A stretch of 64,000 bases of DNA from Streptococcus oralis (GTDB lineage: Bacteria > Bacillota > Bacilli > Lactobacillales > Streptococcaceae): positions 696,553 through 760,552 of the forward strand of contig NZ_KQ969521.1 in NCBI RefSeq assembly GCF_001578935.1. The letters run 5' to 3'. The position numbers and the translations under genes were made by a program. This document shows positions 1-12,435 of this stretch, piece by piece; position 1 is the stretch's first letter; each line of letters begins with the position of its first letter. The notes under the pieces are model-generated. The model worked only from the letters and a program-made list of their open reading frames with translations. It made no database searches and was not told the DNA's origin.

Positions 1-285
1 CATTTGCCCCATCATACTTAAAATCTCACTATTGGCACGTCGGTATAGATCTCCGACTTCATTCACTTTATTGAGCATATCAGCATAGTGGTCCATTGCT
101 TTTGAAGCTTCTCCACCCTCATAATATTTCGTTTCAGATAGGCTCTTTAATTTTGGAGCTAAGTTATTTTGAAATGAAATTTCAATGTTGGTAATGTAAG
201 ACATGATTGTATGCATTTCATCAGGATTCATGGTGATTTCGTTAGATCCACCACCACCCATTACAGTCGTTTCAGTCACTACCAT
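1..285 (-). CDS. WXG100/LXG-like T7SS protein, N-terminal part (cut by window edge)
   Basis: The first 95 codons of a reverse-strand gene that runs off the window. The start is the ATG at 283-285, with AGGAGGATTTT just upstream. The product opens with a short linker carrying four glycines (MVVTETTVMGGGGSNEI), then an alpha-helical stretch ending in ILSMMGQM, with YYEGGEA in the middle. That layout resembles the helical hairpin at the N-terminus of type VII (WXG100/LXG) substrates, but no clear W-x-G is visible. It overlaps the end of the upstream gene by 14 bp, so it belongs to the same operon. It could be another small WXG partner or the start of a toxin; the visible part cannot decide. Confidence 0.6.
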   Translation of the reverse strand, partial: MVVTETTVMGGGGSNEITMNPDEMHTIMSYITNIEISFQNNLAPKLKSLSETKYYEGGEASKAMDHYADMLNKVNEVGDLYRRANSEILSMMGQM

Positions 286-970
286 TTTCAAAATCCTCCT
301 CCCTAAACGGAATGGCAAGCCAGCTATACAATCTCTCAAGGAAATAGTATTGGCTAAAGCGGTATAACTCTTCTTGATTTACATCAAATCCCAATAGTTC
401 GCCCTCTTCTTCAACGAATAGATACGAAGCTGTTAATAATGCTGCGTGTCTGGTCTCGCACATTTGTTCCAAAGGATAATACTGTACCATTAGCGCTTGA
501 ACTGATGCTAAAGCCGTTTCGATATCAGGAGTTAGTTGCTTTCTTTCAGTTAGAAAATCAACCTCATCTTCCAGAGGAATCCTCGTCACCAATGGGAGCT
601 TGTCTTGAAGCAGCAATAAGCGACTCATAGGACTAATCTTGACAAGTTGATATCCCTGACCAGTATCTACGATTAGAATAGAAAAGTTACTGTCTCGGCA
701 TTGCATGAAATAGAAATTATTTAGAATGACCAAAGTTCTACCCAAGCAATATTCTTTTAGAGTCTCAACTATGACAAACCCTGCTTTTGTTAGTGAACCA
801 TCCTCATTCACCAAACCTTTTTTCTCAAGTTCCTCTTTGGCTATCGTCCATATGAGTTCAGAAGCAGTGACAATATCATCTAGCGTGGGCAACCCGGGCA
901 TCAACTCCCCATCAAAGGCACCAATCAAATAATGGAGTTCATGAATAGAAAACGTTTCTTTATGTGACAT
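272..970 (-). CDS. T7SSb-associated protein, resembles DUF5081 family
   Basis: A 232-residue, acidic, probably cytosolic protein with no signal peptide or membrane segment. It begins MSHKETFSIHELHYLIGAFD and has a mixed alpha/beta pattern. I associate this type of protein (DUF5081-like) with type VIIb loci, where it sits beside YwqH- and WXG-like genes and may act as an effector-loading or chaperone factor; that role is inference from context. It starts 2 bp after the WXG gene and overlaps the next gene by 14 bp, so all four genes are probably co-transcribed. The family call rests on recollection of operon order and size, not on a motif I can point to. Confidence 0.55.
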   Translation of the reverse strand: MSHKETFSIHELHYLIGAFDGELMPGLPTLDDIVTASELIWTIAKEELEKKGLVNEDGSLTKAGFVIVETLKEYCLGRTLVILNNFYFMQCRDSNFSILIVDTGQGYQLVKISPMSRLLLLQDKLPLVTRIPLEDEVDFLTERKQLTPDIETALASVQALMVQYYPLEQMCETRHAALLTASYLFVEEEGELLGFDVNQEELYRFSQYYFLERLYSWLAIPFREEDFENGSD

Positions 971-972
971 AT

Positions 973-1272
973 TTACAACCCCTTTATTGATGCAACTTCT
1001 GATGAGTTATTGTAATTATCAATTGATTTTTTCAGACCGGAGACTGCTTTTTCATGTTCGTTCATGATAGATCTTAGATCCTTATGGTATTTATGGATAA
1101 TGTCTAAATAGGATTCAAAAGCTACCTTAGTTTTTCCTGACCACTTGGCAGATTGGAGATAAGTTTTTAATCGAGTAACCGTTTGATAAGAGTTCGTCAA
1201 TTCTTGATTGATCTCTTTTGAAAGCTTAATAGCTGTCTCCAAATCCTTATATTTGATTTTTAAATCCGCCAT
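973..1272 (-). CDS. WXG100-family small secreted protein (YwqI/DUF5344-like)
   Basis: A 99-residue, highly helical protein with a W-S-G motif at residues 44-46 (SAKWSGKTKVAFESY), exactly where the turn of a WXG100 helical hairpin belongs. Lysine- and leucine-rich heptads flank it on both sides. Proteins of this kind dimerise and are exported through the type VIIb (Ess/Yuk) machinery or escort LXG toxins. The ATG at 1270-1272 follows GGAGG closely and lies 5 bp after the stop of the preceding gene. The size and the position directly after a YwqH-like gene match the ywqH-ywqI order of Bacillus. The WXG assignment is firm; the subfamily is less so. Confidence 0.75.
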   Translation of the reverse strand: MADLKIKYKDLETAIKLSKEINQELTNSYQTVTRLKTYLQSAKWSGKTKVAFESYLDIIHKYHKDLRSIMNEHEKAVSGLKKSIDNYNNSSEVASIKGL

Positions 1273-1277
1273 GAATC

Positions 1278-1680
1278 TTACCTCCGTCTTTTATTTCTAT
1301 TTTTACGTTCCTCAGCTTGACGTCTTGCTTCAGCTTCTCGCTCTTTACGCTCTTCCTCAGCTAAGCGGTCATAGTATTTATATCGTTCATAGGCTGCATC
1401 AACAGCACTCGATAAGCTTTTTGCATCACTAGACTGATTAGTTCGCACAGTATCAACTTTTCCTTTTACCCGACCTTCGCTATCACTAAAAACAATCCTC
1501 TGGAATAAAACTTGTACTCATTGAAGGTCGAGAGTTATTATAGCTATCAACTTTTCCTTCCATCTCTTTTAATTTTTCCTCAAAGCTTTTTAATTGACTG
1601 TTCAAGTCGTTATACAATGCTTTATATTGTTCCCTTTTCTTTTCTGTGTCGGTTCCAAACAACGCGTCCCATAATGACAT
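1278..1680 (-). pseudogene. Frameshifted YwqH-like (DUF5082-type) T7SS accessory protein
   Basis: Reading from the ATG at 1678-1680 (preceded by AGAAGGAGG) gives MSLWDALFGTDTEKKREQY and a coiled coil, then stops at 1486-1488 after PEDCF. Past that stop, another frame continues without interruption to a TAA at 1278-1280. It opens with SDSEGRVKGK, contains KSLSSAVDAAYERY, and ends in an Arg/Lys/Glu-rich tail. The 403-bp span is 134 codons plus one base. Deleting one T from the T5 run at 1488-1492 (minus strand) joins the two parts as DCF-SDSEGR into a 133-residue protein, the size expected for this family. It may be a broken gene, a slippage-controlled gene or a base-calling error. It is the first gene of the T7SS operon seen here. 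Confidence 0.75.
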
Positions 1681-1848
1681 ACTGAGTAGCCTCCTTCTAA
1701 AACTTTCTGCATTAAAACAAGCGAAAGCATACCACGAATTCATCAAATAAGAAGGGATAGTATGATCCCTCGAATAAAGTCGGGTAACACTTTAAAAATA
1801 TTCTCATTTTATTTTATCATATTTTCTAATTATTTAAAATCAAATGAA
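1681..1848 (-). promoter_or_regulatory. Leader and probable promoter region of the T7SS operon
   Basis: This A/T-rich stretch separates a strong hairpin terminator from the first T7SS gene. On the minus strand it contains a small inverted repeat, GGGAT-CATACT-ATCCC (about 1755-1770). No textbook -35/-10 pair stands out, so the promoter position is uncertain. An in-frame upstream ATG at 1746 exists, but the strong ribosome-binding site belongs to the ATG at 1680. Confidence 0.35.
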
Positions 1849-1885
1849 AAAGGTTCTAATCCTGTTCCGTACAGAATTAGAACTT
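1849..1885 (-). terminator. Rho-independent terminator
   Basis: A 37-bp hairpin with about 15 paired bases on each side (AAAGTTCTAATTCTGT and its near-complement) around a short loop, followed on the minus strand by TTTTTC. It would stop transcripts coming from the rpsI scar and insulate the T7SS operon. Confidence 0.75.
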
Positions 1886-1960
1886 TCAATGATTTTTTCA
1901 ACTTTTGAAGTAATACATAAAAATCTAACAGTAAGATAGACATTTCAAAAAACACGAAAA

Positions 1961-1991
1961 AAGCACCCATAGGGCAAACCTGTGAGTGCTT
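1961..1991 (-). terminator. Second hairpin terminator
   Basis: Minus-strand stem AAGCACTCACAGG pairs, with one mismatch and G-T wobbles, with a copy ending GGGTGCTT, and is followed by six T. No gene lies between this and the neighbouring hairpins, so it forms part of a terminator series downstream of the rpsI fragment. Confidence 0.6.
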
Positions 1992-2117
1992 GTAAACGTT
2001 GATAGTATCGTATTGATTAAGGTTTTGAGGCAACTGACTTTGTCAGATTGCAGCCACATTTGTAAGCGACTAAAGTCGCAACAACTGTGTCAACTGCACC
2101 AATTTAGTATGAAAATA

Positions 2118-2144
2118 TAAAAAAGAACACCTCGAAAGGTGCTC
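2118..2144 (-). terminator. Terminator directly downstream of the rpsI fragment
   Basis: Minus-strand hairpin AGCACCT-TTCG-AGGTGTT followed by six T, 27 bp after the rpsI stop codon. A UUCG tetraloop and a U-tract make this a convincing intrinsic terminator. It is probably the native rplM-rpsI terminator retained beside the attachment-site copy. Confidence 0.7.
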
Positions 2145-2170
2145 TCTGTAAGTATAGTAATTCTCTCGAA

Positions 2171-2220
2171 TTAACGTTTACTAAATTGTGATGCTTTACG
2201 AGCTTTCTTAAGACCTGGCT
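2171..2220 (-). pseudogene. rpsI: 3'-end copy of rpsI (ribosomal protein S9): integration scar (att site)
   Basis: The minus strand encodes PGLKKARKASQFSKR followed by TAA, the invariant C-terminal tail of ribosomal protein S9, with nothing resembling S9 upstream of it. No complete rpsI or rplM occurs elsewhere in the window. The 3' end of rpsI is, as I recall, a known insertion site of streptococcal integrative elements, which rebuild the gene end and leave a short copy at the other boundary. The fragment is therefore read as an attL/attR-type scar. The native-looking terminator follows it directly. Confidence 0.8.
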
Positions 2221-2323
2221 GGAAACACTTCTATTTGAATACGTTTCAGGATTCGCTTAAAACCAATGTTTTCCCACGTTTTCAGTAAGAACAATTTCAT
2301 CTAATTTGAATAACTTTCATTTG

Positions 2324-2390
2324 AATGGTGTGAATTTTACACTAAAAATACACAAATTGAGCTAGATTTTACCAAAAAGTTCACACCATT
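2324..2390. repeat. 11-bp perfect inverted repeat next to the rpsI scar
   Basis: AATGGTGTGAA at 2324-2334 and TTCACACCATT at 2380-2390 are perfect complements separated by 45 bp of A/T-rich DNA. Short TTACAA repeats follow at 2431, 2455 and 2475. Beside an attachment-site scar, such spaced repeats could be arm sites for a recombinase or excisionase, or part of an origin. There is no direct proof. Confidence 0.5.
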
Positions 2391-2484
2391 TAAATTGTTA
2401 TTGTTTTGTACATTTTATAAAAACAAAACCTTACAAGGAATTCTATGTGTTCGATTACAAGTGTTTACGGGGCATTACAAATTA

Positions 2485-3072
2485 TCACAAATATCTCTCA
2501 ATATGCTCTATAAATATAAAAGGTTCTATATCCTTGTGAGCGAGACCTTTAGATAGAGTAAGGCATTGTTTTGCTGTACCTTTTCCTGGTCGATGGTAAA
2601 ACGTTCTAATCCCTTGAAGGAATATTCCAAAACGCGAATGACGTTCCGAGGCTGTCATCTCATCTAAATATTTGTCAACAGCTAAAGCGAATACATTTCC
2701 ATAATACCTATCATCGTCAAATCTTGTTCTAGTCATATAATCTTGAATGTCATAAAGCATAGATTTCATATTTCGATAATTGGGTGCTCCCACCAATGCT
2801 CGACTAGCTCTATTTATACCATCAACATAACTGTAAGCATCATTTAATTTACCAAAATCCCAAAACCTTTTAGAATCAAAATACTCATACTCCATATCTA
2901 GTTGTGATTTTAATATTCTTAAAATGGACAGTGCTGTACTGTCATCTTTATTTTTTATTGCCACATAAGCTTCTTCTACTCCGGTATTATAAAAATCAAT
3001 GTGCTGATTAATTTCAGAACCTAGAACACCTGTAATATCAAATTGTAATTTATCTTGATTTAAACTAATCAT
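2485..3072 (-). CDS. Uncharacterised protein, third gene of the Gabija operon
   Basis: A 195-residue soluble protein that I do not recognise. It has no signal peptide, no membrane segment and no nucleotide-binding motif. The sequence is mostly helical with many aromatics (WDFGKLNDAYSYVDG; YYGNVFALAVDKYLDEM) and ends in HIERYL. Its ATG overlaps the last bases of gajB (ATGA type, 4 bp), so it is very likely translated by coupling and made together with GajB. Standard Gabija systems have two genes, so this may be an accessory subunit, a regulator or a guard protein, or simply cargo. The gene is intact and shares the base composition of gajAB. Confidence 0.75.
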   Translation of the reverse strand: MISLNQDKLQFDITGVLGSEINQHIDFYNTGVEEAYVAIKNKDDSTALSILRILKSQLDMEYEYFDSKRFWDFGKLNDAYSYVDGINRASRALVGAPNYRNMKSMLYDIQDYMTRTRFDDDRYYGNVFALAVDKYLDEMTASERHSRFGIFLQGIRTFYHRPGKGTAKQCLTLSKGLAHKDIEPFIFIEHIERYL

Positions 3073-4607
3073 ATATGCCGTCTTTCTATAAAATCTTCAA
3101 AAGAAAATTTCTCATTATTGTTGCTTAATAATCTATTGATTTCATCAATATAAATTGTCTGATTATCAATAATAATAACCTTTGATTTTGCTCTAGTAAT
3201 CGCAACATAATGATCTTCAAATTTTAACCCTTGTTTGCGATCAATCAAATATTCTACAAAAATTACTACAGTATCTGCAGCTAAACCTTTTGATCCATGA
3301 GTAGTCATTAATAAATTATTACTCATTAAACCCGTATCAAATAATTTTTTATTATCAAAATTACTTAAAACTTCCAGCAGTATTTGACTTTCTAACTTAT
3401 CTTCATAAATTGTAAGTGAAACATCTAAATACGAAGCTATTTCTTCAACAAGTGACTGTGTAGGTCGTTGACGAAGCCTCTTTAATTTTTTTAAAAGTTC
3501 TTTCCTAAATTCATCGTTATATTCAGGAAAAAGATTATTCAATACATCATACTCAGAAAAGTCTTCAAGAAAGTAATATTGAGCCATAGATTGCAAAAAA
3601 TTACTGTTAGTACAATCTATAAATGGATTTTTTCTAACGTAATCAACTTTATTTGGAAGAATATCATTCAAATGTGTCGCAGTTTCTTCAATATCTTTAT
3701 TAATTCCAATTAAAAAATAATTTTTTTCTTGTAAATTTATATCCCCATTATCAATAAGGTACTTAATAACATCTTCTTTTAAGTAATCCTGATTAGGTTC
3801 TAAATATAGAATTGAACCCTCTTCTCTAATATTATCGACAGTCACTTCAGGAGTCAGAGCTAAAGAGAAATCCACTATTCTAGGCAGACTTCTAAAATTC
3901 CCAATAAATCTCTCTTTTCTAAAATCATTTTTGGTTTCCCATAAATTGTTTATATATTTGGGCGACGCTCCTCTCCACTGATAAATAGATTGCTTATCAT
4001 CTCCTACAATAAATAAAGGAATCCCTAACTCATTTTTTAGATACAGAAATAAATCATTCATAGACTGGTCGCAATCCTGAAATTCATCAATATACAAAGT
4101 ATTAAATTTATATTTTATATATTCCGACGCAGAATCTATTGTCTTCAAAATATCTAAAGCAACTTCACATTTGAAATTCTTGCCGTGTTTAGAAGTAGGA
4201 AAGTCGTAAGTCCCAAAAATACCATCTTGCAATATTTGTTTTATGCCAGTGCTATAGTGGCTAAAATTATGTTCTATCCGAAAGCTAAACTGTACAGATG
4301 TTTGAATTTCGTATTTCTGATTAAGAAAAGGAAGGATTATTTCTTTATCTAAAAACGAATCGATGGTCGATACAACAACGTTGTCCGAAATATCAACTAA
4401 TTTTTGCTTTATTTCCTCCGTTGCATTTCGAGTAAAAGTTATTGCTGCTAATTTTTGATAATTATTTAACCGTTCAGAATCACTTTTAAGCTTTTTAGTT
4501 AAAAAAGTTGTTTTTCCCGAACCTGCGTTCGCTAAAACTAAAATATTCCCTTGGTGTTCCAATAATTCTTTTTTAACATCCTCGTCATGTGTAACAATAT
4601 CATTCAT
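3069..4607 (-). CDS. gajB: GajB-like UvrD/PcrA-family helicase (Gabija defence)
   Basis: A superfamily 1 helicase of 512 residues, close to the usual GajB size. Motifs in order: Walker A ANAGSGKT (residues 26-33); motif Ia AAITFTRNATEEIK; Walker B YIDEFQD; motif III IVGDDKQSIYQWRGA; motif V TTHGSKGLAAD; motif VI YVAITRAKSK. Large accessory subdomains of PcrA/UvrD are reduced. In Gabija, GajB binds GajA and is thought to sense or generate DNA ends that release GajA nuclease activity during phage infection. The start overlaps the end of gajA by 8 bp and the end overlaps the next gene by 4 bp, so the three are translationally coupled. Confidence 0.88.
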   Translation of the reverse strand: MNDIVTHDEDVKKELLEHQGNILVLANAGSGKTTFLTKKLKSDSERLNNYQKLAAITFTRNATEEIKQKLVDISDNVVVSTIDSFLDKEIILPFLNQKYEIQTSVQFSFRIEHNFSHYSTGIKQILQDGIFGTYDFPTSKHGKNFKCEVALDILKTIDSASEYIKYKFNTLYIDEFQDCDQSMNDLFLYLKNELGIPLFIVGDDKQSIYQWRGASPKYINNLWETKNDFRKERFIGNFRSLPRIVDFSLALTPEVTVDNIREEGSILYLEPNQDYLKEDVIKYLIDNGDINLQEKNYFLIGINKDIEETATHLNDILPNKVDYVRKNPFIDCTNSNFLQSMAQYYFLEDFSEYDVLNNLFPEYNDEFRKELLKKLKRLRQRPTQSLVEEIASYLDVSLTIYEDKLESQILLEVLSNFDNKKLFDTGLMSNNLLMTTHGSKGLAADTVVIFVEYLIDRKQGLKFEDHYVAITRAKSKVIIIDNQTIYIDEINRLLSNNNEKFSFEDFIERRHI

Positions 4608-6357
4608 AGTCTAAGAACTCCGCCAAAACTTTAAAATTTCCTGACTCCACAATCTTAAGCGCAATCTCTGTAGTAAGATAATTATCTATATATTCCAACA
4701 TGTTGTACTGTTTACTACTTTGTAACCAATTTACAAAATCAAATTCACTCATTCCACTCCTCTCGCTATCGGATAAAACCTGAGCCAAGTCATTTTCTAA
4801 ATCAACTTCTGATATAAATATTCCCTCTGCATTTAATTGAGATACTAGACTCTGGTTAGTCGAATATAGTTCTTCTTTTTTAGACTTTATATTCTGTTTT
4901 CTCTCATCTTTGGAAGAGAAATCTATACGATAATTATCTAATCTAGGAGTCACACTTTGATCAAGCAAGTCAATACACCTATTCAAACCAATAGGAGAAA
5001 ACACATGTTTATCACCACGACTAGCTTTTAAATCATTATCAGTTTTAATCCAAATATCAATTCCTAATGCTCTATATAGCTCTGAATAAGGTTTAAAATT
5101 TATTCCATCAACTTGTAATAAGTATTTTCCATCAGACTCGAAATCGGGACTTATATATTCAAAAATAGCAGAAAATAGATAATATTCTGATGGACCTTCA
5201 ACCAAAAGAATCCTATCATAAAAGATTGACTGTGCCAATGATTTATTTAATTTTTTCTTTAAATTTGAAAATTCATCAGGAACTGTGTAATAGACTGATT
5301 GCCCCGTTGCATCTTGTTGATTGGTTATCTTAATGAGTTGAGTATTATCCATTTCATAAAGAACTTCGGCTGAATGAGTTGTTAGAAAAAAGTATTCATA
5401 AATATTCTGAACAAAAAGTTGTTTTGAAAGAGAAATTTGAACTGAACGATGTAAGCTATTCTCTGGTTCCTCAATTAAATAAATTATTACCTTGTTGCTA
5501 TATTGTTTTTCTGAAATCAAATGATTAATAGCATATGATAAAAGTTTTTTACGACCGTCTCCCGATGTTGGATAATTGTTAGTATCATCATTCCAGTTAA
5601 TGTATGGCGTAAGATTATCTAAATATCCTGAGATGGATATTTCTGATTGAATTTTAATTTCTAAATTTTCTTTACGATAACTTTTATAGGCTTCAGTCAA
5701 CTGTGATTGAACACGAGTGATTAAATGTAAGTTAGAAATATTCTCATTTAGCTTTTCAATATTATTCTCAATCTCTTCCTCAAGCTTTACATCCTCGCCA
5801 GTTTTAGAATCATCAGAGAACAATAACCTTCTATTTCGCTTAAAAAAGGAATCTAACTCTATAGCGGGATTTACATAAACTATTTGAAATATTTTATCAA
5901 TGTCACTTCTTGTACCATATTGGGGGACTTCAACTAAATTATCTAGTGTTGAACCCCAGCTTAATACCGGATTTCCAAATAACTCTTTCTCATTGTAAAC
6001 TGCTTCTAATGAGATAAAGAATGTGTCTAAGCTAGAGTTATTTCTTGCTCCAGCTACCGTTGAAATTAGAAGGCGAGAATGTGAAGTTTTTAGTAGTTCT
6101 TCATCTCCCTCCATTTTTCTATCAGACAAATCAAGTTCAAGTTGTATTTTTATAGGTCTACTAGTATCATGTTTATGATAATCTGATTTAATGAAACCTT
6201 TATTTCTGATAGTTCTATCCAAGAGGTATCTTATTGCGAATAAGAGATTTGTTTTTCCTGAATCATTCATTCCAAATATTACATTTTTATTTGACAAATC
6301 AATCTCAATAGAACTAAAATTACGAAAATTTTCAATTACTAGTTTTTTAAATTCCAT
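4600..6357 (-). CDS. gajA: GajA-like OLD-family ATPase/TOPRIM nuclease (Gabija defence)
   Basis: A 585-residue overcoming-lysogeny-defect (OLD) family nuclease, the GajA size. The N-terminal ABC-type ATPase shows Walker A GMNDSGKT (29-36), a signature-like TSGDGRKKLL (264-273), Walker B with EEPE (296-299) and an H-loop TTHS (326-329). The C-terminal TOPRIM domain starts at RILLVEGPSEYYL (metal-binding Glu 387) and continues through the acidic KTDND (438-442). Known GajA is a tetrameric DNA-nicking enzyme held in check by nucleotides. It lies 33 bp downstream of pezT behind AGGGGAAGTT and overlaps gajB. Adjacency of an OLD nuclease and a UvrD-like helicase is the Gabija signature. Confidence 0.88.
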   Translation of the reverse strand: MEFKKLVIENFRNFSSIEIDLSNKNVIFGMNDSGKTNLLFAIRYLLDRTIRNKGFIKSDYHKHDTSRPIKIQLELDLSDRKMEGDEELLKTSHSRLLISTVAGARNNSSLDTFFISLEAVYNEKELFGNPVLSWGSTLDNLVEVPQYGTRSDIDKIFQIVYVNPAIELDSFFKRNRRLLFSDDSKTGEDVKLEEEIENNIEKLNENISNLHLITRVQSQLTEAYKSYRKENLEIKIQSEISISGYLDNLTPYINWNDDTNNYPTSGDGRKKLLSYAINHLISEKQYSNKVIIYLIEEPENSLHRSVQISLSKQLFVQNIYEYFFLTTHSAEVLYEMDNTQLIKITNQQDATGQSVYYTVPDEFSNLKKKLNKSLAQSIFYDRILLVEGPSEYYLFSAIFEYISPDFESDGKYLLQVDGINFKPYSELYRALGIDIWIKTDNDLKASRGDKHVFSPIGLNRCIDLLDQSVTPRLDNYRIDFSSKDERKQNIKSKKEELYSTNQSLVSQLNAEGIFISEVDLENDLAQVLSDSERSGMSEFDFVNWLQSSKQYNMLEYIDNYLTTEIALKIVESGNFKVLAEFLDYE

Positions 6358-6390
6358 AACTTCCCCTAATATTTTTAAAAAAAAATCAAA

Positions 6391-7152
6391 CTACTTGATA
6401 TTTAATGAATTCAACCGTTCCTGTCCCACCTTCAGCATCTCTTCCTCCACCTTACTCCATTTTCCGAAGAGGCATGCTTGTAGAACTTCTGCTGCTGAGG
6501 TTTCGTCTACTTGCGAATCATAAACACACGATTGATCTCTTTGGTAAATTTGAATTTGATTAAATAGCTGAACATTTTCTAATTCTCGTAAGTTATCAAC
6601 TAAATGTTCTACAATTCCATCATGGTTCTCTTTGGGAGTCGCTCTAGCTTGACTAGGATCTATAGCATAGAGCTCTTCATAACGTATCAAGGTACTGAGA
6701 TAGGACAATTCTGGCTTGGTCGCAATTAGTGCAAGTGAGACTTGATATCCTTTAGTTATCAATAATTGTGCCGTTTTTCTAGGAACTTCTGTTGTTCTCA
6801 AGGTGCCCTCTATTAACAAATGATAACCTTGTTTACTCAATTCATCTACGAGATGTTCAACCATTTTTCCCGCAAATACTTTGGTATAATCCACACTGTC
6901 TTTTCCATACTTTTCCTGTAGGTCAAGGTAGTTCGGATGAAAAGAACGATAACTATCTCCATCAATGATAATGATATTGCCTTGAAATTCCCTTTGTTTA
7001 ATACGATGAATCGTTGTTTTACCAGCACCACTTTGTCCACCTAGCAAGATGGCCTTGGGCTGAGACGAAGTTGTTTTACCACGAGTTAAAGAACGAACGA
7101 GTCGTTTGGATGCTCGTTCAAAATCATCTTGACTAAATTCTTCTAGTTTCAT
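6391..7152 (-). CDS. pezT: PezT zeta toxin (UDP-N-acetylglucosamine kinase)
   Basis: A 253-residue zeta-family toxin. The P-loop GQSGAGKT spans residues 39-46 with Lys45, and Asp66 in IIIDGDSYRS is the expected catalytic base; both positions match pneumococcal PezT. The enzyme phosphorylates UDP-N-acetylglucosamine, poisoning peptidoglycan synthesis when the antitoxin is lost. Its ATG overlaps the pezA stop by one base (TAATG), with GGTGGTGG as ribosome-binding site. In pneumococcus this pair lies on pathogenicity island PPI-1. Here gajAB follow 33 bp downstream, which suggests one defence operon. Confidence 0.93.
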   Translation of the reverse strand: MKLEEFSQDDFERASKRLVRSLTRGKTTSSQPKAILLGGQSGAGKTTIHRIKQREFQGNIIIIDGDSYRSFHPNYLDLQEKYGKDSVDYTKVFAGKMVEHLVDELSKQGYHLLIEGTLRTTEVPRKTAQLLITKGYQVSLALIATKPELSYLSTLIRYEELYAIDPSQARATPKENHDGIVEHLVDNLRELENVQLFNQIQIYQRDQSCVYDSQVDETSAAEVLQACLFGKWSKVEEEMLKVGQERLNSLNIK

Positions 7153-7628
7153 TAAGCCACCACCAGATGAGTAGCTTGTTCTAGCATACGTTCAATGCCA
7201 TCCAAATAGCCATTGTATCGCTCTACATCCTCAAAAGTTCCTACAAGATAAATCTTCGTGTTAATCAAATCAGAAAGATCATCGCTCATTAGAACCCAAG
7301 GATTATTAGCATCATCAAATGCAATTTCTAGTTCATCTTGTAAACGATAAAGTTGCGCTAAGATATTCGCCCCTCGCTCTTTAATCACTTCAATTTTCAG
7401 AGTTAACTGATAATCTTCTACTGGTGTGAGCATTTTTTCCTCCCCTACGATATCGATATAAGAAACATTAAATTTCTTGCAGATACGATCTATTAATTCT
7501 GTCGAAACTCGACTTGTTCCATTTTCATAACGACTCAGACTATTTCTAGAAATACCAACAATCTTTGCAAACTCAGGCTGGGTTAATTTATGTGTTTTAC
7601 GTAACGATTTTATATTTTCTCCAATCAT
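7152..7628 (-). CDS. pezA: PezA antitoxin / autorepressor (XRE family)
   Basis: A 158-residue antitoxin. Residues 1-65 form an XRE helix-turn-helix (LTQPEFAKIVGISRNSLSRY); the remainder is the acidic helical domain that blocks the PezT ATP site. The protein represses its own promoter with PezT as co-repressor. The ATG at 7626-7628 follows AGGAGGAGTTAC. Directly upstream is a strong promoter overlapped by a long palindrome that fits a PezA operator. It is the first gene of the pezAT-gajAB operon, so PezA may indirectly set the level of the Gabija proteins. Confidence 0.93.
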   Translation of the reverse strand: MIGENIKSLRKTHKLTQPEFAKIVGISRNSLSRYENGTSRVSTELIDRICKKFNVSYIDIVGEEKMLTPVEDYQLTLKIEVIKERGANILAQLYRLQDELEIAFDDANNPWVLMSDDLSDLINTKIYLVGTFEDVERYNGYLDGIERMLEQATHLVVA

Positions 7629-7653
7629 GTAACTCCTCCTTTTATTTATTTCT

Positions 7654-7698
7654 ATTATAGCACAAAAAATAAAAACGCACCAAAAATGGTGCGTTTTT
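7654..7698 (-). promoter_or_regulatory. pezA promoter with palindromic operator
   Basis: Minus strand: -10 TATAAT (7654-7659), 18-bp spacer, -35 TTGGTG (7678-7683). A perfect palindrome, AAAAACGCACC and its complement around six bases (7671-7698), covers the -35 box. Binding there would block RNA polymerase, matching known PezA autoregulation. Flanking A and T runs mean the same hairpin could also act as a terminator. Confidence 0.75.
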
Positions 7699-7700
7699 AT

Positions 7701-7905
7701 TTACAATAGATTCACAATTGTATAATCTTCGCTTTGCAGTAATTCCAAGACTTTTTTTACAAATTGCATTGACAGCAATCCTTCAATCTTAGAGCCATGA
7801 GTTTTAAAATTTTCGTCGATTTCTTGAATTTCTAAATTAGTTTTCTTTTCAGCAATTTTCTCAGAAACGGGGGAATGAAAACTATATTCCCCAATTTCGT
7901 AATAT
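7701..7905 (-). pseudogene. C-terminal fragment of an unknown protein upstream of pezA
   Basis: An open frame of about 68 codons with no start codon and sound codon usage ends in TAA at 7701-7703. It includes YYEIGEYSFHSPVSEKIAEK and ends LLQSEDYTIVNLL. Its upstream limit coincides with the point where integrase coding begins on the opposite strand, so the rest of the gene was probably lost in the rearrangement that joined the two. I do not recognise the family. Confidence 0.5.
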
Positions 7906-9008
7906 AAGAAATATAGATTTAATTCTGCTGCAGAAGCAAATAAGGAATTAACCCGACTGAAATATGAATATCATCAATCTCAAGGTTATTCTAACTACCG
8001 TATGAAATATCGGCAATTTATGGAAGAACATTATATTCCATATTACAGAACAACAGTTGAGCACAGCACATTTTCAGTTCGAGAGAAAAACCTTTTACAG
8101 CTTTGTGATCGTTTTGGTGACACTACACTTCGTTCGATTACCCTCGAACAAGTCCAGAAGTTTCGAACATGGTTACTGACTAGTCAAGATGAGAATGGTG
8201 CCGGATATTCACAAGGATATGCTAGCCTCATCTTTGGCATGTTTAGGAAATCATTAGACTATGCTTTGCAAATGGGATATGTGGAAAAAAACATTTCTAA
8301 GCAATCTAATGCAATTCCTAAAGGAAAAAGTAATGTCCCATATTGGACTAAGAGTGAATTTGAAGCTGTTATTTCGCAAATTTACATTGAAGATGTATAT
8401 GAACATTTAAACTTCGTGATGATTTGGGTATATTTCATGACTGGCGTACGTGTAAATGAAGGTTGTGCCCTTCAATGGAATGATGTTGACTTTGATAAGC
8501 AACGCCTACGAGTTCATCATATGCTTATTGTTAAAAACAAAAAGAATGGACTCGTAATTCCTATACGAAAACTAAAGACGGGAAAAGGATGATTAGTTTA
8601 GATAAAGATACTATTGATGTGTTAAAAAAATGGCGTGAAGCTCAAAAAAAGATTGGACTAGGACACGAGAACGATTTTATCTTTTCATACGATGGCTTAC
8701 CTATGTTGAAATCTACAATCTCAAGGATTATTAAAAGGTACGCCAAGATAGCTCACGTAAAGCCTATCCAAGCGAAGGGGCTCCGTCACAGCCATGCATC
8801 ACTGCTAATTAATGAATTAAATGCTGATGTACTTATTCTATCAAAACGTTTAGGACACTCTTCTCCTGAAATCACCTTGAAACACTACTCGCATCTATGG
8901 GATGGCGCTGATGAAGCTATCACTAATGAAATGGTCGGAATTATTAATGTTTCTTTCCCATCTTCTAGCTTAGTACATTTCAACGGGAACCAATCAATTT
9001 CAAAATAA
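7903..9008 (+). pseudogene. int: Decayed tyrosine site-specific integrase
   Basis: Coding for a phage/ICE-type tyrosine recombinase starts at 7903 without a start codon (KKYRFNSAAEANKELTRLKY), so the N-terminus is missing. One frame runs to the TGA at 8590-8592. The correct frame resumes from about 8548 (…TRNSYTKTKDGKRMISLD) to the stop at 9006-9008. One base appears lost after position 8547. The catalytic domain otherwise has Arg in TGVRVNEG, Lys in the TKTKDGK beta-hairpin, GLRHSHASLL, GHSSPEITLKHY with the nucleophilic Tyr. The first His of the HxxR box is Lys (AKGLR), which I believe is usual in this streptococcal subfamily. The island can therefore no longer move by itself. Confidence 0.85.
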
Positions 9009-9009
9009 C

Positions 9010-9103
9010 ATTCCCACCAAAAACCCCACCAAAGAATTACTAACTCCTTAAAAAGCCTATTATATAGCGATTCTCAAGGAGTCTGCAACCGTTGAGTGGG
9101 AAT
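9010..9103. repeat. Nested inverted repeats after the integrase: candidate attachment region
   Basis: ATTCCCAC (9010-9017) pairs with GTGGGAAT (9096-9103), and ACTCCTT (9043-9049) pairs with AAGGAGT (9076-9082), giving two concentric inverted repeats in the short gap between the integrase stop and ffh. Tyrosine-integrase elements usually keep their attachment site next to int, so this is the most likely remnant att region. No direct repeat partner was found in the window. Confidence 0.45.
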
Positions 9104-9119
9104 AAACCAATCAAACACA

Positions 9120-9152
9120 AAAGAACTCTGAATCCGATTCAGAGTTCTTTTT
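9120..9152. terminator. Bidirectional terminator between int and ffh
   Basis: AAGAACTCTGAATC pairs perfectly with GATTCAGAGTTCTT around a two-base CG centre, with T-rich flanks. It serves the convergent ffh operon on the minus strand and closes the island side on the plus strand. Confidence 0.85.
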
Positions 9153-9178
9153 AAGGTAAGCACTTCTGCTTTCCTTTT

Positions 9179-10750
9179 TTATTTGCGTTTTTTCTTCGCT
9201 TTTTTCATTTTGTTGGCCATGCGTTTCATAGACTGTTTCATGGCAAATTCACCGATTTTACCTTTAAGTCCACCACCGAACATCTGGCTCATATCTGGCA
9301 TGCCTGCTCCTCCGAGACCTGACATATCCGGCATTCCACCTTGTCCCATCATGCCTTCAAGGGCAGACATATCCATCCCTCCCATATTTGGCATATTTTT
9401 TGGAAGGTTATTGGGATTGATTCCCATTTGTTTCATCATCTTGTTCATATCCCCAGACATGACACCTTGCATGAGCTGTTTGGCCTGATTAAAGTCCTTG
9501 ATAAATTTATTGACTTCGACAAAGGTATTTCCAGAACCAGCAGCGATACGGCGGCGACGACTTGGATTTAACAAATCAGGATTTTCACGCTCCTCAGGTG
9601 TCATGGAAGACACAATGGCACGTTTGCGCGCAATCTGGCGCTCATCCACCTTCATATTTTGAAGGGCTGGATTGTTGGCCATACCTGGAATCATCTTGAG
9701 TAAGTCTTCCATTGGTCCCATATTTTGCACCTGATCCAATTGATCGATGAAATCATTGAAATCAAAGGTGTTTTCACGCATTTTCTCAGCCATTTCAAGG
9801 GCTTTTTGTTCATCATATTCCTGAGAAGCTTTCTCGATCAAGGTCAGCATATCCCCCATACCAAGGATACGGCTTGACATACGGTCTGGGTGGAAGGTTT
9901 CGATATCTGTAATCTTTTCACCCGTACCAGTGAACTTGATAGGTTTACCAGTGATGTGACGAACAGACAAAGCCGCACCACCACGAGTGTCCCCATCAAT
10001 CTTGGTAAGGATGACACCAGTCACTTCCAACTGAGCATTGAATTCACGAGCAACATTAGCCGCTTCCTGACCAATCATGGCATCAATGACGAGTAGGATT
10101 TCATTTGGTTGGGCCAGGGCTTTAACATCACGAAGCTCATTCATGAGAAGTTCATCGATTTGCAAACGCCCTGCCGTATCGATCAAGACATAGTCGTTGT
10201 GATTGGCTTGCGCTTGCTCCAAACCTTGGCGAACAATCTCAACAGCTGGCACTTCTGTTCCAAGTGCAAAAACAGGAACATCTATTTGTTGTCCAAGTGT
10301 TTTCAGCTGATCGATGGCTGCTGGACGATAAATATCTGCCGCAATCATCAAGGGACGAGCATTTTCTTCCTTCTTGAGTTTATTAGCCAGCTTACCAGCA
10401 AAAGTCGTTTTACCAGCCCCTTGCAAACCGACCATCATGATAATGGTTGGAATTTTTGATGACTTGATAATCTCAGCCGTATCGGAACCTAAAACGGCTG
10501 TCAGTTCCTCATCAACGATTTTGATAATCTGTTGGGCAGGATTGAGGGTATCAATGACCTCGTGTCCGACTGCACGTTCACGAACTTTCTTGATAAAGTC
10601 CTTTACAACAGGCAAGGCAACGTCGGCTTCAAGCAAGGCCAAACGAATCTCTTTGGTTGCTTCTTGGACATCAGCCTCAGATATTTTTCCTTTTTTACGT
10701 AGATTTTTAAAGACGTTCTGTAAACGTTCTGTTAAACTTTCAAATGCCAT
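9179..10750 (-). CDS. ffh: Signal recognition particle GTPase Ffh (SRP54)
   Basis: A 523-residue protein. The N domain covers about 1-90. The G domain has P-loop GLQGAGKT (108-115), DTAGR and TKIDGD. The C-terminal M domain is rich in methionine and glycine and ends in a Lys/Arg tail. It binds 4.5S RNA and hydrophobic signal sequences of nascent chains and docks at FtsY to deliver them to SecYEG. It lies 11 bp downstream of ylxM, the conserved partner gene, and shares the promoter upstream of ylxM. It marks the right edge of the island. Confidence 0.98.
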   Translation of the reverse strand: MAFESLTERLQNVFKNLRKKGKISEADVQEATKEIRLALLEADVALPVVKDFIKKVRERAVGHEVIDTLNPAQQIIKIVDEELTAVLGSDTAEIIKSSKIPTIIMMVGLQGAGKTTFAGKLANKLKKEENARPLMIAADIYRPAAIDQLKTLGQQIDVPVFALGTEVPAVEIVRQGLEQAQANHNDYVLIDTAGRLQIDELLMNELRDVKALAQPNEILLVIDAMIGQEAANVAREFNAQLEVTGVILTKIDGDTRGGAALSVRHITGKPIKFTGTGEKITDIETFHPDRMSSRILGMGDMLTLIEKASQEYDEQKALEMAEKMRENTFDFNDFIDQLDQVQNMGPMEDLLKMIPGMANNPALQNMKVDERQIARKRAIVSSMTPEERENPDLLNPSRRRRIAAGSGNTFVEVNKFIKDFNQAKQLMQGVMSGDMNKMMKQMGINPNNLPKNMPNMGGMDMSALEGMMGQGGMPDMSGLGGAGMPDMSQMFGGGLKGKIGEFAMKQSMKRMANKMKKAKKKRK

Positions 10751-10761
10751 TTTTCTTCCTC

Positions 10762-11094
10762 TTATTCTCTATTATCAATGCTTGTTAAAATTTCTATCTG
10801 CTCCTGCAGAAAATCATCCTTGGGATAGCGCTCCAAGATCTGGTCAAAAATCTGACTGCGGACAATGTAGTCCGAATACATGTGCAATTTCATCTCATAA
10901 TCTTCTAGAATCTTTTCTGTCCGCTTGATATTATCATAAACAGCTTGACGACTGACACCGAACTCTTCAGCAATCTCAGCAAGACTGTAGTCATCAGCAT
11001 AGTAGAGTTCAATATAGTTCATCTGCTTGTCTGTCAAAAGCGCAGCATAAAATTCAAAAAGGGCGTTCATACGATTGGTTTTTTCGATTTCCAT
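10762..11094 (-). CDS. ylxM: YlxM, SRP-associated HTH protein
   Basis: A 110-residue cytosolic protein with a sigma-70 region 4-like helix-turn-helix ([20 protein letters not shown]). In streptococci YlxM binds the 4.5S RNA-Ffh complex and modulates the SRP GTPase cycle; loss reduces acid tolerance in S. mutans (established for that species). The full family length is present. It is the first gene of the ylxM-ffh operon. Confidence 0.93.
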
Positions 11095-11101
11095 AACTTT
11101 T

Positions 11102-11107
11102 ATTATA
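11102..11107 (-). promoter_or_regulatory. -10 box of the ylxM-ffh promoter
   Basis: TATAAT on the minus strand is preceded by TTGG, giving an extended -10 (TGG-TATAAT) very close to the ylxM start, so the 5' UTR must be extremely short. A second TATAAT lies 20 bp further upstream. Confidence 0.5.
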
Positions 11108-11162
11108 CCAAAAAAACGATTATACTGCTAGAGTAGAAGCACTTTAAATAGAGTAAGAAGAA

Positions 11163-11195
11163 GAAAAAAAGAACCTTGCAAGGCAAGATTCTTTT
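11163..11195 (-). terminator. tuf terminator
   Basis: Minus-strand stem AAGAATCTTGC pairs with GCAAGGTTCTT and is followed by a run of seven T. It lies about 45 bp after the tuf stop. Confidence 0.8.
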
Positions 11196-11238
11196 AGTGT
11201 CTGACTTAAATAATTGTTCTTCTGGGAACTTAATCGAA

Positions 11239-12435
<1,197 letters not shown>

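Follow-up and report, generated by a model that had tools for sequence, protein, structure and literature searches.

In the anti-phage system CBASS (cyclic-oligonucleotide-based anti-phage signaling system) with CapH/CapP, and likewise with BrxR/CapW, a small helix-turn-helix repressor gene heads the defence operon, and CreTA, a small-RNA toxin-antitoxin (TA) pair under Cascade control, guards CRISPR-Cas. Here, we describe an operon of Streptococcus oralis in which the TA pair PezAT is joined to the anti-phage system Gabija and to an orphan gene, orf5; it lies in a stretch of 64,000 nucleotides (RefSeq assembly GCF_001578935.1, contig NZ_KQ969521.1, positions 696,553 to 760,552), referred to as the window. 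Compared with CapH/CapP and BrxR/CapW, the repressor is in this case an antitoxin encoded with its toxin, one operator is common to at least six systems, and different bodies are found behind a head that is kept. In contrast to CreTA, both partners of PezAT are proteins, the pair has an operator of its own, and the cassette is not known to control it.

The PezAT (epsilon-zeta, type II) pairs of the Streptococcus pneumoniae island PPI-1 and of Tn5253, and SezAT of the integrative and conjugative elements (ICEs) of S. suis, share with the window PezA, PezT, the 1-nt overlap of their genes and a palindrome over the promoter. In the available parts of the reports, PezAT is described as an operon of two genes that lies within a variable region (PMC4997998, PMC4263131, PMC10383233, PMC4257102), whereas in the window a defence cassette follows directly behind pezT. 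Gabija has the same adjacent GajA (ATPase and TOPRIM) and GajB (UvrD helicase), and the window differs from it by the TA head and a third gene, orf5, common to two distant Gabija subtypes. The pneumococcal TvrTA/phd-doc pair adjoins a variable type I restriction-modification locus and, in the accessible portions of two papers, is proposed to prevent cassette loss (PMC4263131, PMC4257102). It is likewise a TA pair beside a variable defence locus, but it concerns one restriction locus and its recombinase, whereas one pezAT head, with a common operator, is found with many systems that join it at the stop codon of the toxin. The nearest published ideas in the text at hand are the variable region behind PPI-1 and the stabilization of a restriction locus by TvrTA (PMC4263131). 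No report of defence genes joined to pezAT was found among the best-ranked literature matches; one may exist in a PezAT review or in subscription journals.

We propose, with a probability of roughly 0.6, that PezAT serves interchangeable anti-phage cassettes as a common, autoregulated leader and as their anchor; the window holds one member of this family of operons. Sequence comparison shows that the head is constant, the body is variable, the joint is tight (CBASS excepted), the operator is shared, and exchange has been repeated. This suggests that, in the conserved TA head with its one control site, bacterial immunity has a common switch and a common anchor. The features of the window operon are the following:

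7675-7694, no strand: operator core ACGCACCA-N4-TGGTGCGT, 0 mismatches, within a longer palindrome at 7667-7702, over the -35 region
7654-7662, minus strand: extended -10 element TGCTATAAT, operon promoter as read from the sequence
7152-7628, minus strand: pezA, HTH_3 and epsilon-antitoxin domain, repressor/antitoxin
6391-7152, minus strand: pezT, of the zeta toxin family (by family a UDP-GlcNAc kinase), with the cassette joint at its 3' end
6358-6390, minus strand: pezT-gajA spacer of 33 bp with ribosome-binding site AGGGGAAG and no terminator-like site
4600-6357, minus strand: gajA, 585 aa, AAA_15 ATPase and OLD-like TOPRIM nuclease, here named Gabija subtype I
3069-4607, minus strand: gajB, 512 aa, UvrD-like helicase
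2485-3072, minus strand: orf5, 195 aa, orphan, mostly helical in a low-confidence model
2122-2147, minus strand: terminator-like hairpin downstream of orf5, possible transcript end, from the consensus scan only

The original prediction, made from the letters of this stretch, was of five head-to-tail genes that overlap by 1, 8 and 4 bp and leave a single gap of 33 bp, and the coordinates of the open reading frames (ORFs) confirm it to the base: pezA/pezT overlap by 1 bp, gajA/gajB by 8 bp and gajB/orf5 by 4 bp. The identities given to the genes hold as well. PezA (302.4 bits) and PezT (496.5 bits) score above the NCBIfam equivalog cut-offs of 290 and 470, GajA matches PADLOC PDLC00081 (E 3e-255), PF13175 (E 3e-20) and PF20469 (E 4e-15), and GajB matches PDLC00122 (E 2e-180) and PF00580 (E 6e-27). 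The closest solved structures are 8wy4 for GajA, 8jqb for GajB and 2p5t for PezT. The locus can thus be assigned to Gabija by a GajA with ATPase and TOPRIM domains and an adjacent downstream UvrD-like GajB, and to PezAT by the antitoxin gene in first position, the 1-nt overlap and the inverted repeat over the putative promoter.

To describe what follows pezT, 284 genomes of the genus were searched at E 1e-10, and a pezT match was present in 128 of them. The DNA behind the pezT matches listed (the weakest ones lying outside the list) comprised 145 loci with a callable pezT, 144 from the genus, window included, and one from another genus (G355); six fragmentary pezT places were left out (G199 and G271 having two apiece, G256 and G239 a single one). 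Cassettes were called with PADLOC on representatives of most of them, and the remaining loci were assigned by BLAST. Directly behind pezT, 49 of the 145 loci carry a PADLOC-named defence system, with six different systems represented: Gabija in 19 loci (subtype I in 4, II in 6, III in 6 and IV in 3, one of the last with an interrupted pezT), Lamassu in 12 (L141 and L142 being only ~28% identical to the representative), CBASS and SIR2-HerA in 7 each, and Hachiman and Dodola in 2 each. Some of these 49 cassettes carry a gene split by a stop, e.g., L007, L086, L148 and L090. A Ppl-like ATPase of ~830-850 aa was found behind pezT in 10 loci, an unclassified single gene in 2, and UmuDC-like genes, which were not counted as defence, in 8 (5 full, 3 partial); partial or remnant cassettes account for 17 loci, or 14 once the UmuDC-like ones are set aside. 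Several genomes carry a pair of pezAT heads, each with a body of its own, among them G028 (CBASS, Gabija IV) and G050 (Gabija II, Ppl-like).

As a control, 48 cassette loci were put in seeded random order, and the next gene (the first of at least 100 aa past the cassette run) was scanned in the first 20 loci where one was in view. A PADLOC match at 1e-10 was present in 1 of these 20 genes; a second of them, in L083, is LmuA-like by blastp (75%) and was not listed by PADLOC. Since the cassette families were themselves defined from genes behind pezT, this control gives support and is no blind test. An upstream control of ~400 nt per locus, too short to be fair, gave hits in 2 of 145 loci, both UmuDC-like. 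As an observation on its own, L083 holds a cassette tandem, in which pezAT and four CBASS genes are followed ~1 kb on by Lamassu-like genes.

Exchange can be followed directly around orf5. A scan of named genomes for this gene gave six loci (L002-L007). In four of them (L002, L004, L005 and L006) pezAT and orf5 are kept and the window-type gajAB is absent, another GajA-GajB pair lying between; in L004 this middle pair matches PADLOC PDLC00079 and PDLC00135, and we name it Gabija II. L007 from S. hyovaginalis has the same arrangement as the window, and L003 from S. infantis carries Gabija II and orf5 with no pezAT. At the DNA level, the window is 92-98% identical to L002, L004 and L005 in orf5 (560/588 nt aligned), 92-93% in pezT and 91-97% in pezA, and its gajA and gajB have no DNA match in these three loci. 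Judging by these alignments, the operon body between pezT and orf5 has been exchanged. The same is seen from the toxin gene: the window pezT reaches 95% identity with the pezT of L080, a CBASS locus, and its next relatives by tree path are carriers of Gabija III, CBASS and Gabija II. In a quick tree of 70 pezT genes, with remnant cassettes labelled too, at least 39 changes of cassette label are needed, versus a minimum of 12 for the 13 labels. By sequence, the window belongs to the proposed class, with the common operator, pezA, pezT and a close cassette that varies among relatives.

Among the 136 loci with sequence upstream of pezA, ACGCACCA-N4-TGGTGCGT was found at three or fewer mismatches in 134, the loop always being 4 nt, and in all 13 labelled cassette types; the two loci lacking it are one Ppl-like and one unlabelled. 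None of 136 single-base shuffles reached this threshold, the best having 4 mismatches, and TGNTATAAT stands upstream of 132 of the 136 pezA genes. The window palindrome is the sole match at up to 3 mismatches in the window (0.10 expected) and the sole one with fewer than 3 in the 2.0-Mb genome. Pneumococcal PezA/PezT bind an inverted repeat over their single promoter, and the layout in the window fits that promoter as described in the available part of the source (PMC4997998). The -35 box had been placed inside a palindromic operator, which is only partly right: the palindrome does cover the -35 region, but no good -35 hexamer is seen upstream of the window pezA. In addition, a consensus promoter scan listed no promoter at this site, and promoter-like hexamers in window positions 1-10000 are not above chance (35 found versus 41 expected). 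The consensus scan gave no terminator-like site on the operon strand from the pezA start to the gajB start, and two weak ones further down, inside gajB (3281-3265) and inside orf5 (2649-2627). Nothing reached the Rfam gathering threshold in window positions 1-12000.

At the joint, the first cassette gene starts between -20 and +63 nt from the pezT stop, CBASS excepted, and the stop often overlaps the start codon of the cassette (distances of -26 nt in one tally are alignment starts, the range given here being based on ORFs). PezT proteins are similar up to about EEEMLKxGQERL, and the tail past that point varies by cassette. In Gabija III (L076, L086 and L096 versus L150 and L152), pezT bodies at 69-71% identity carry tails that reach 83-91% as far as the start of the cassette, and SIR2-HerA 1 is similar, with bodies at 77-78% and tails at 94-96%. 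This effect is absent in L116, a Gabija III locus with a different tail, and in Gabija I and Dodola across distant pezT. For all pairs at 60-75% body identity, tail identity is 0.668 with the same cassette versus 0.576 with different ones, a weak effect, because the labels pool cassettes with different joints.

The original prediction had joined PezAT to Gabija in particular and called for a survey of their co-occurrence. The combination does recur in other species, but a dedicated partnership does not stand, as Lamassu, CBASS, SIR2-HerA, Hachiman, Dodola and three other Gabija subtypes fill the same place. Among the 284 genomes, the close orthologues of GajA I (at least 84% identity, the window's included) are behind pezT in 3 of 3 cases, and the copy in one genome of another genus of the same taxonomic order also lies behind pezT. 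Gabija II is behind pezT in 6 of 8 genomes, and Gabija III, present in 6 of 284 (E 1e-40), has all six copies directly behind pezT. Given that other systems fill the slot and that Gabija pairs also exist with no pezAT, there is no support for a function that belongs to the combination of Gabija and PezT alone. The broader idea that PezA may adjust the output of the defence gene behind it, extended to many cassettes, fits the anatomy of these loci.

In the mechanism that we propose, the head would consist of the operator-promoter and pezA-pezT, and the body of a cassette joined at the last pezT codons, here Gabija I and orf5. A single transcript from the pezA promoter would carry antitoxin, toxin and defence genes; PezA or the PezA:PezT complex on the palindrome would hold it low, and it would rise when PezA falls or is titrated. 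PezT would raise the cost of losing the operon, so that the cassette is retained. Cassettes would be swapped by homologous recombination, with pezAT copies as the upstream homology and, downstream, an anchor that is probably orf5 in the window and ICE mobilization genes in many other loci. Repeats containing pezAT are reported to recombine in Tn5253, in the part of the source at hand (PMC4257102). As to why cassettes should be controlled, an expression cost is plausible: chromosomal Dodola and Thoeris delayed growth in S. thermophilus, according to the accessible text (PMC12322248). A TA head common to at least six defence systems lends itself to simple tests, with one operator, one repressor and many bodies, and it links two open questions, the roles of chromosomal TA pairs and the quiet keeping of acquired defence genes. 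A bolder extension, which we put forward only tentatively, is that one PezA regulon runs much of streptococcal accessory immunity, the pezT stop codon being a standard socket for anti-phage systems. If so, cells with two operons, such as G028 with CBASS and Gabija IV, would induce both together, and losing either operon would cost poisoning by PezT.

Several observations weigh against PezAT as a common leader and anchor. No recognised cassette was found in 62 of the 145 loci, 30 of which belong to the lineage at 65-80% identity (4 of the 62 end less than 1000 nt from pezT and 8 have a pezT below 65% identity). CBASS starts 102-135 nt past pezT, with room for its own promoter. Gabija II has no pezAT in 2 of 8 genomes (G065, i.e., L003, and G252, i.e., L212), and the Gabija I-like pairs of L012 and L074 (44-55% identity) have none nearby, L012 having just 1.1 kb upstream. 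LmuB of Lamassu-1 (at least 69% identity) occurs in 10 of 177 genomes, relatives at 30-32% identity in G005, G089 and G104 being excluded from the ten, and only in 6 of the 10 is it behind an intact listed pezT; in G239 it is behind a pezT fragment and in G214, G128 and G166 it is not directly behind a listed full pezT. On the pezT tree, shuffled cassette labels average 50.8 changes and none of 200 shuffles is as low as 39; the labels are partly clustered, and thus part of the pattern is common descent. Finally, the counts are no blind enrichment test, as the cassette families were defined from genes behind pezT, and the survey covered the downstream side only.

Some of these points would also be expected if PezAT and the cassettes were neighbours only, i.e., if pezAT marked a cargo slot of ICEs or islands where cassettes land by recombination and use their own or read-through promoters, with no useful control by PezA. 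The frequent pezAT loci free of a recognised cassette and the CBASS gaps, which could hold promoters, agree with this, as does the finding of a homologue of the Tn5252-type Orf9 or relaxase within eight genes behind pezT in 45 of 145 loci (both in 41). The slot itself is seen in two annotated records labelled as phages (L216 and L217), with the order pezA-pezT-cassette-hypothetical-Orf9-relaxase of the Tn5252 type and cassettes that match the representatives of SIR2-HerA 1 and of the Ppl-like type at 100% identity. PPI-1, the pezAT island of pneumococcus, also has a 3' variable region, sometimes with restriction-modification, in the portions of the reports available (PMC4263131, PMC10383233). 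Yet cassette starts that overlap the pezT stop or lie within 63 nt of it, CBASS excepted, are not accounted for, and several cassettes overlap the stop each in its own way, with distinct PezT tails, which recombination alone does not demand; we consider mere neighbourhood rather unlikely. It is also doubtful that retention is the only role, with PezAT as an addiction module guarding whichever cassette or ICE carries it and the promoter being incidental. Available passages state that SezAT with AbiE stabilizes an S. suis ICE (PMC11062541) and that pezAT has a stabilizing role in pneumococcal elements (PMC4997998), but this leaves unexplained the many cassettes whose start lies at the stop codon of pezT or overlaps it. 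An abortive back-up, as suggested in the original prediction, in which a phage that disables the nuclease/helicase or host expression would let PezA decay and PezT kill by phosphorylating UDP-N-acetylglucosamine, is improbable: the window PezT is full-length and close to 2p5t, and the same toxin is tied to several defences, as a general back-up requires, but the sequence gives no link from a cassette product to the stability of PezA, many pezAT loci have no recognised cassette and the link is not Gabija-specific.

If PezAT is such a common leader and anchor, it also offers a discovery rule, large genes joined to the pezT stop being candidate defence genes. Three large proteins close behind pezT are examples of such candidates for new defence proteins: a Ppl-like SMC/AAA protein (L137:6433-8973), a 529-aa protein with no Pfam or PADLOC match (L115:7382-8968) and a 572-aa protein with no Pfam match (L129:7205-8920). 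Ten hand-picked proteins from 8 of the 62 cassette-free loci were checked, and none was added to the 49. Among these loci, L078 and L085 have restriction-modification-like genes at greater distance, L122 has a divergent DRT3-like pair and L095 a PDC-M68/LmuB-like gene; the remaining hand-picked proteins had no match. In two streptococcal plasmids pezAT is followed by an integrase and no cassette, and neither an enterococcal nor a vagococcal plasmid used for contrast has a defence cassette annotated directly behind zeta. Separately, the Gabija I-like pair of L074 (GajA 50-55% identical) apparently lies inside a type I restriction-modification operon (L074:2559-13438), with neither pezAT nor orf5.

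Regarding orf5, full-length copies occur in 10 of the 284 genus genomes, in all ten behind Gabija I or II. For orf5 nothing significant came up in Pfam, PADLOC, NCBIfam, PHROGs or the PDB, one homologue giving only a weak PHROG match in a profile search (E 0.0096), and the AlphaFold2 model built from 9 sequences has a mean predicted local distance difference test score (pLDDT) of 58, too low for a fold search. It was not found in plasmids, and among viral contigs no relative of GajA or of orf5 was confirmed. A distant orf5-like gene (L072:9844-10248, 134 aa, 32% identity) stands alone outside any recognised defence cassette, beside what are presumably cold-shock-like and comG-like genes, and a C-terminal piece of orf5 is found in L071, a locus with no Gabija. 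Since these copies stand outside Gabija or recognised cassettes, we do not claim orf5 as a defence protein.

The window operon sits between a split integrase and an rpsI-like fragment, with WXG100-like genes beyond, and has no Orf9 or relaxase after its cassette, which places it outside the Tn5252-type ICE slot. The integrase reads as follows:

8002-8592 and 8589-9008, plus strand: tyrosine integrase in two overlapping ORFs, diverging from pezA, island relic

As it is in two overlapping frames, the island is probably immobile. The gene beside it we take to be ffh, and window positions 2170-2276 presumably correspond to the 3' end of rpsI. No direct repeats resembling an attachment-site (att) pair were found in window positions 1-11500. 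Partial copies of the rpsI-like stretch were found at G000:C1:650892, 1241134, 1242961 and 1247243, possibly as att remnants of several elements. Past the operon end, window positions 272-1746 hold a gene that is WXG100-like, though it scores under the curated cut-off, together with its neighbours, possibly belonging to type VII secretion.

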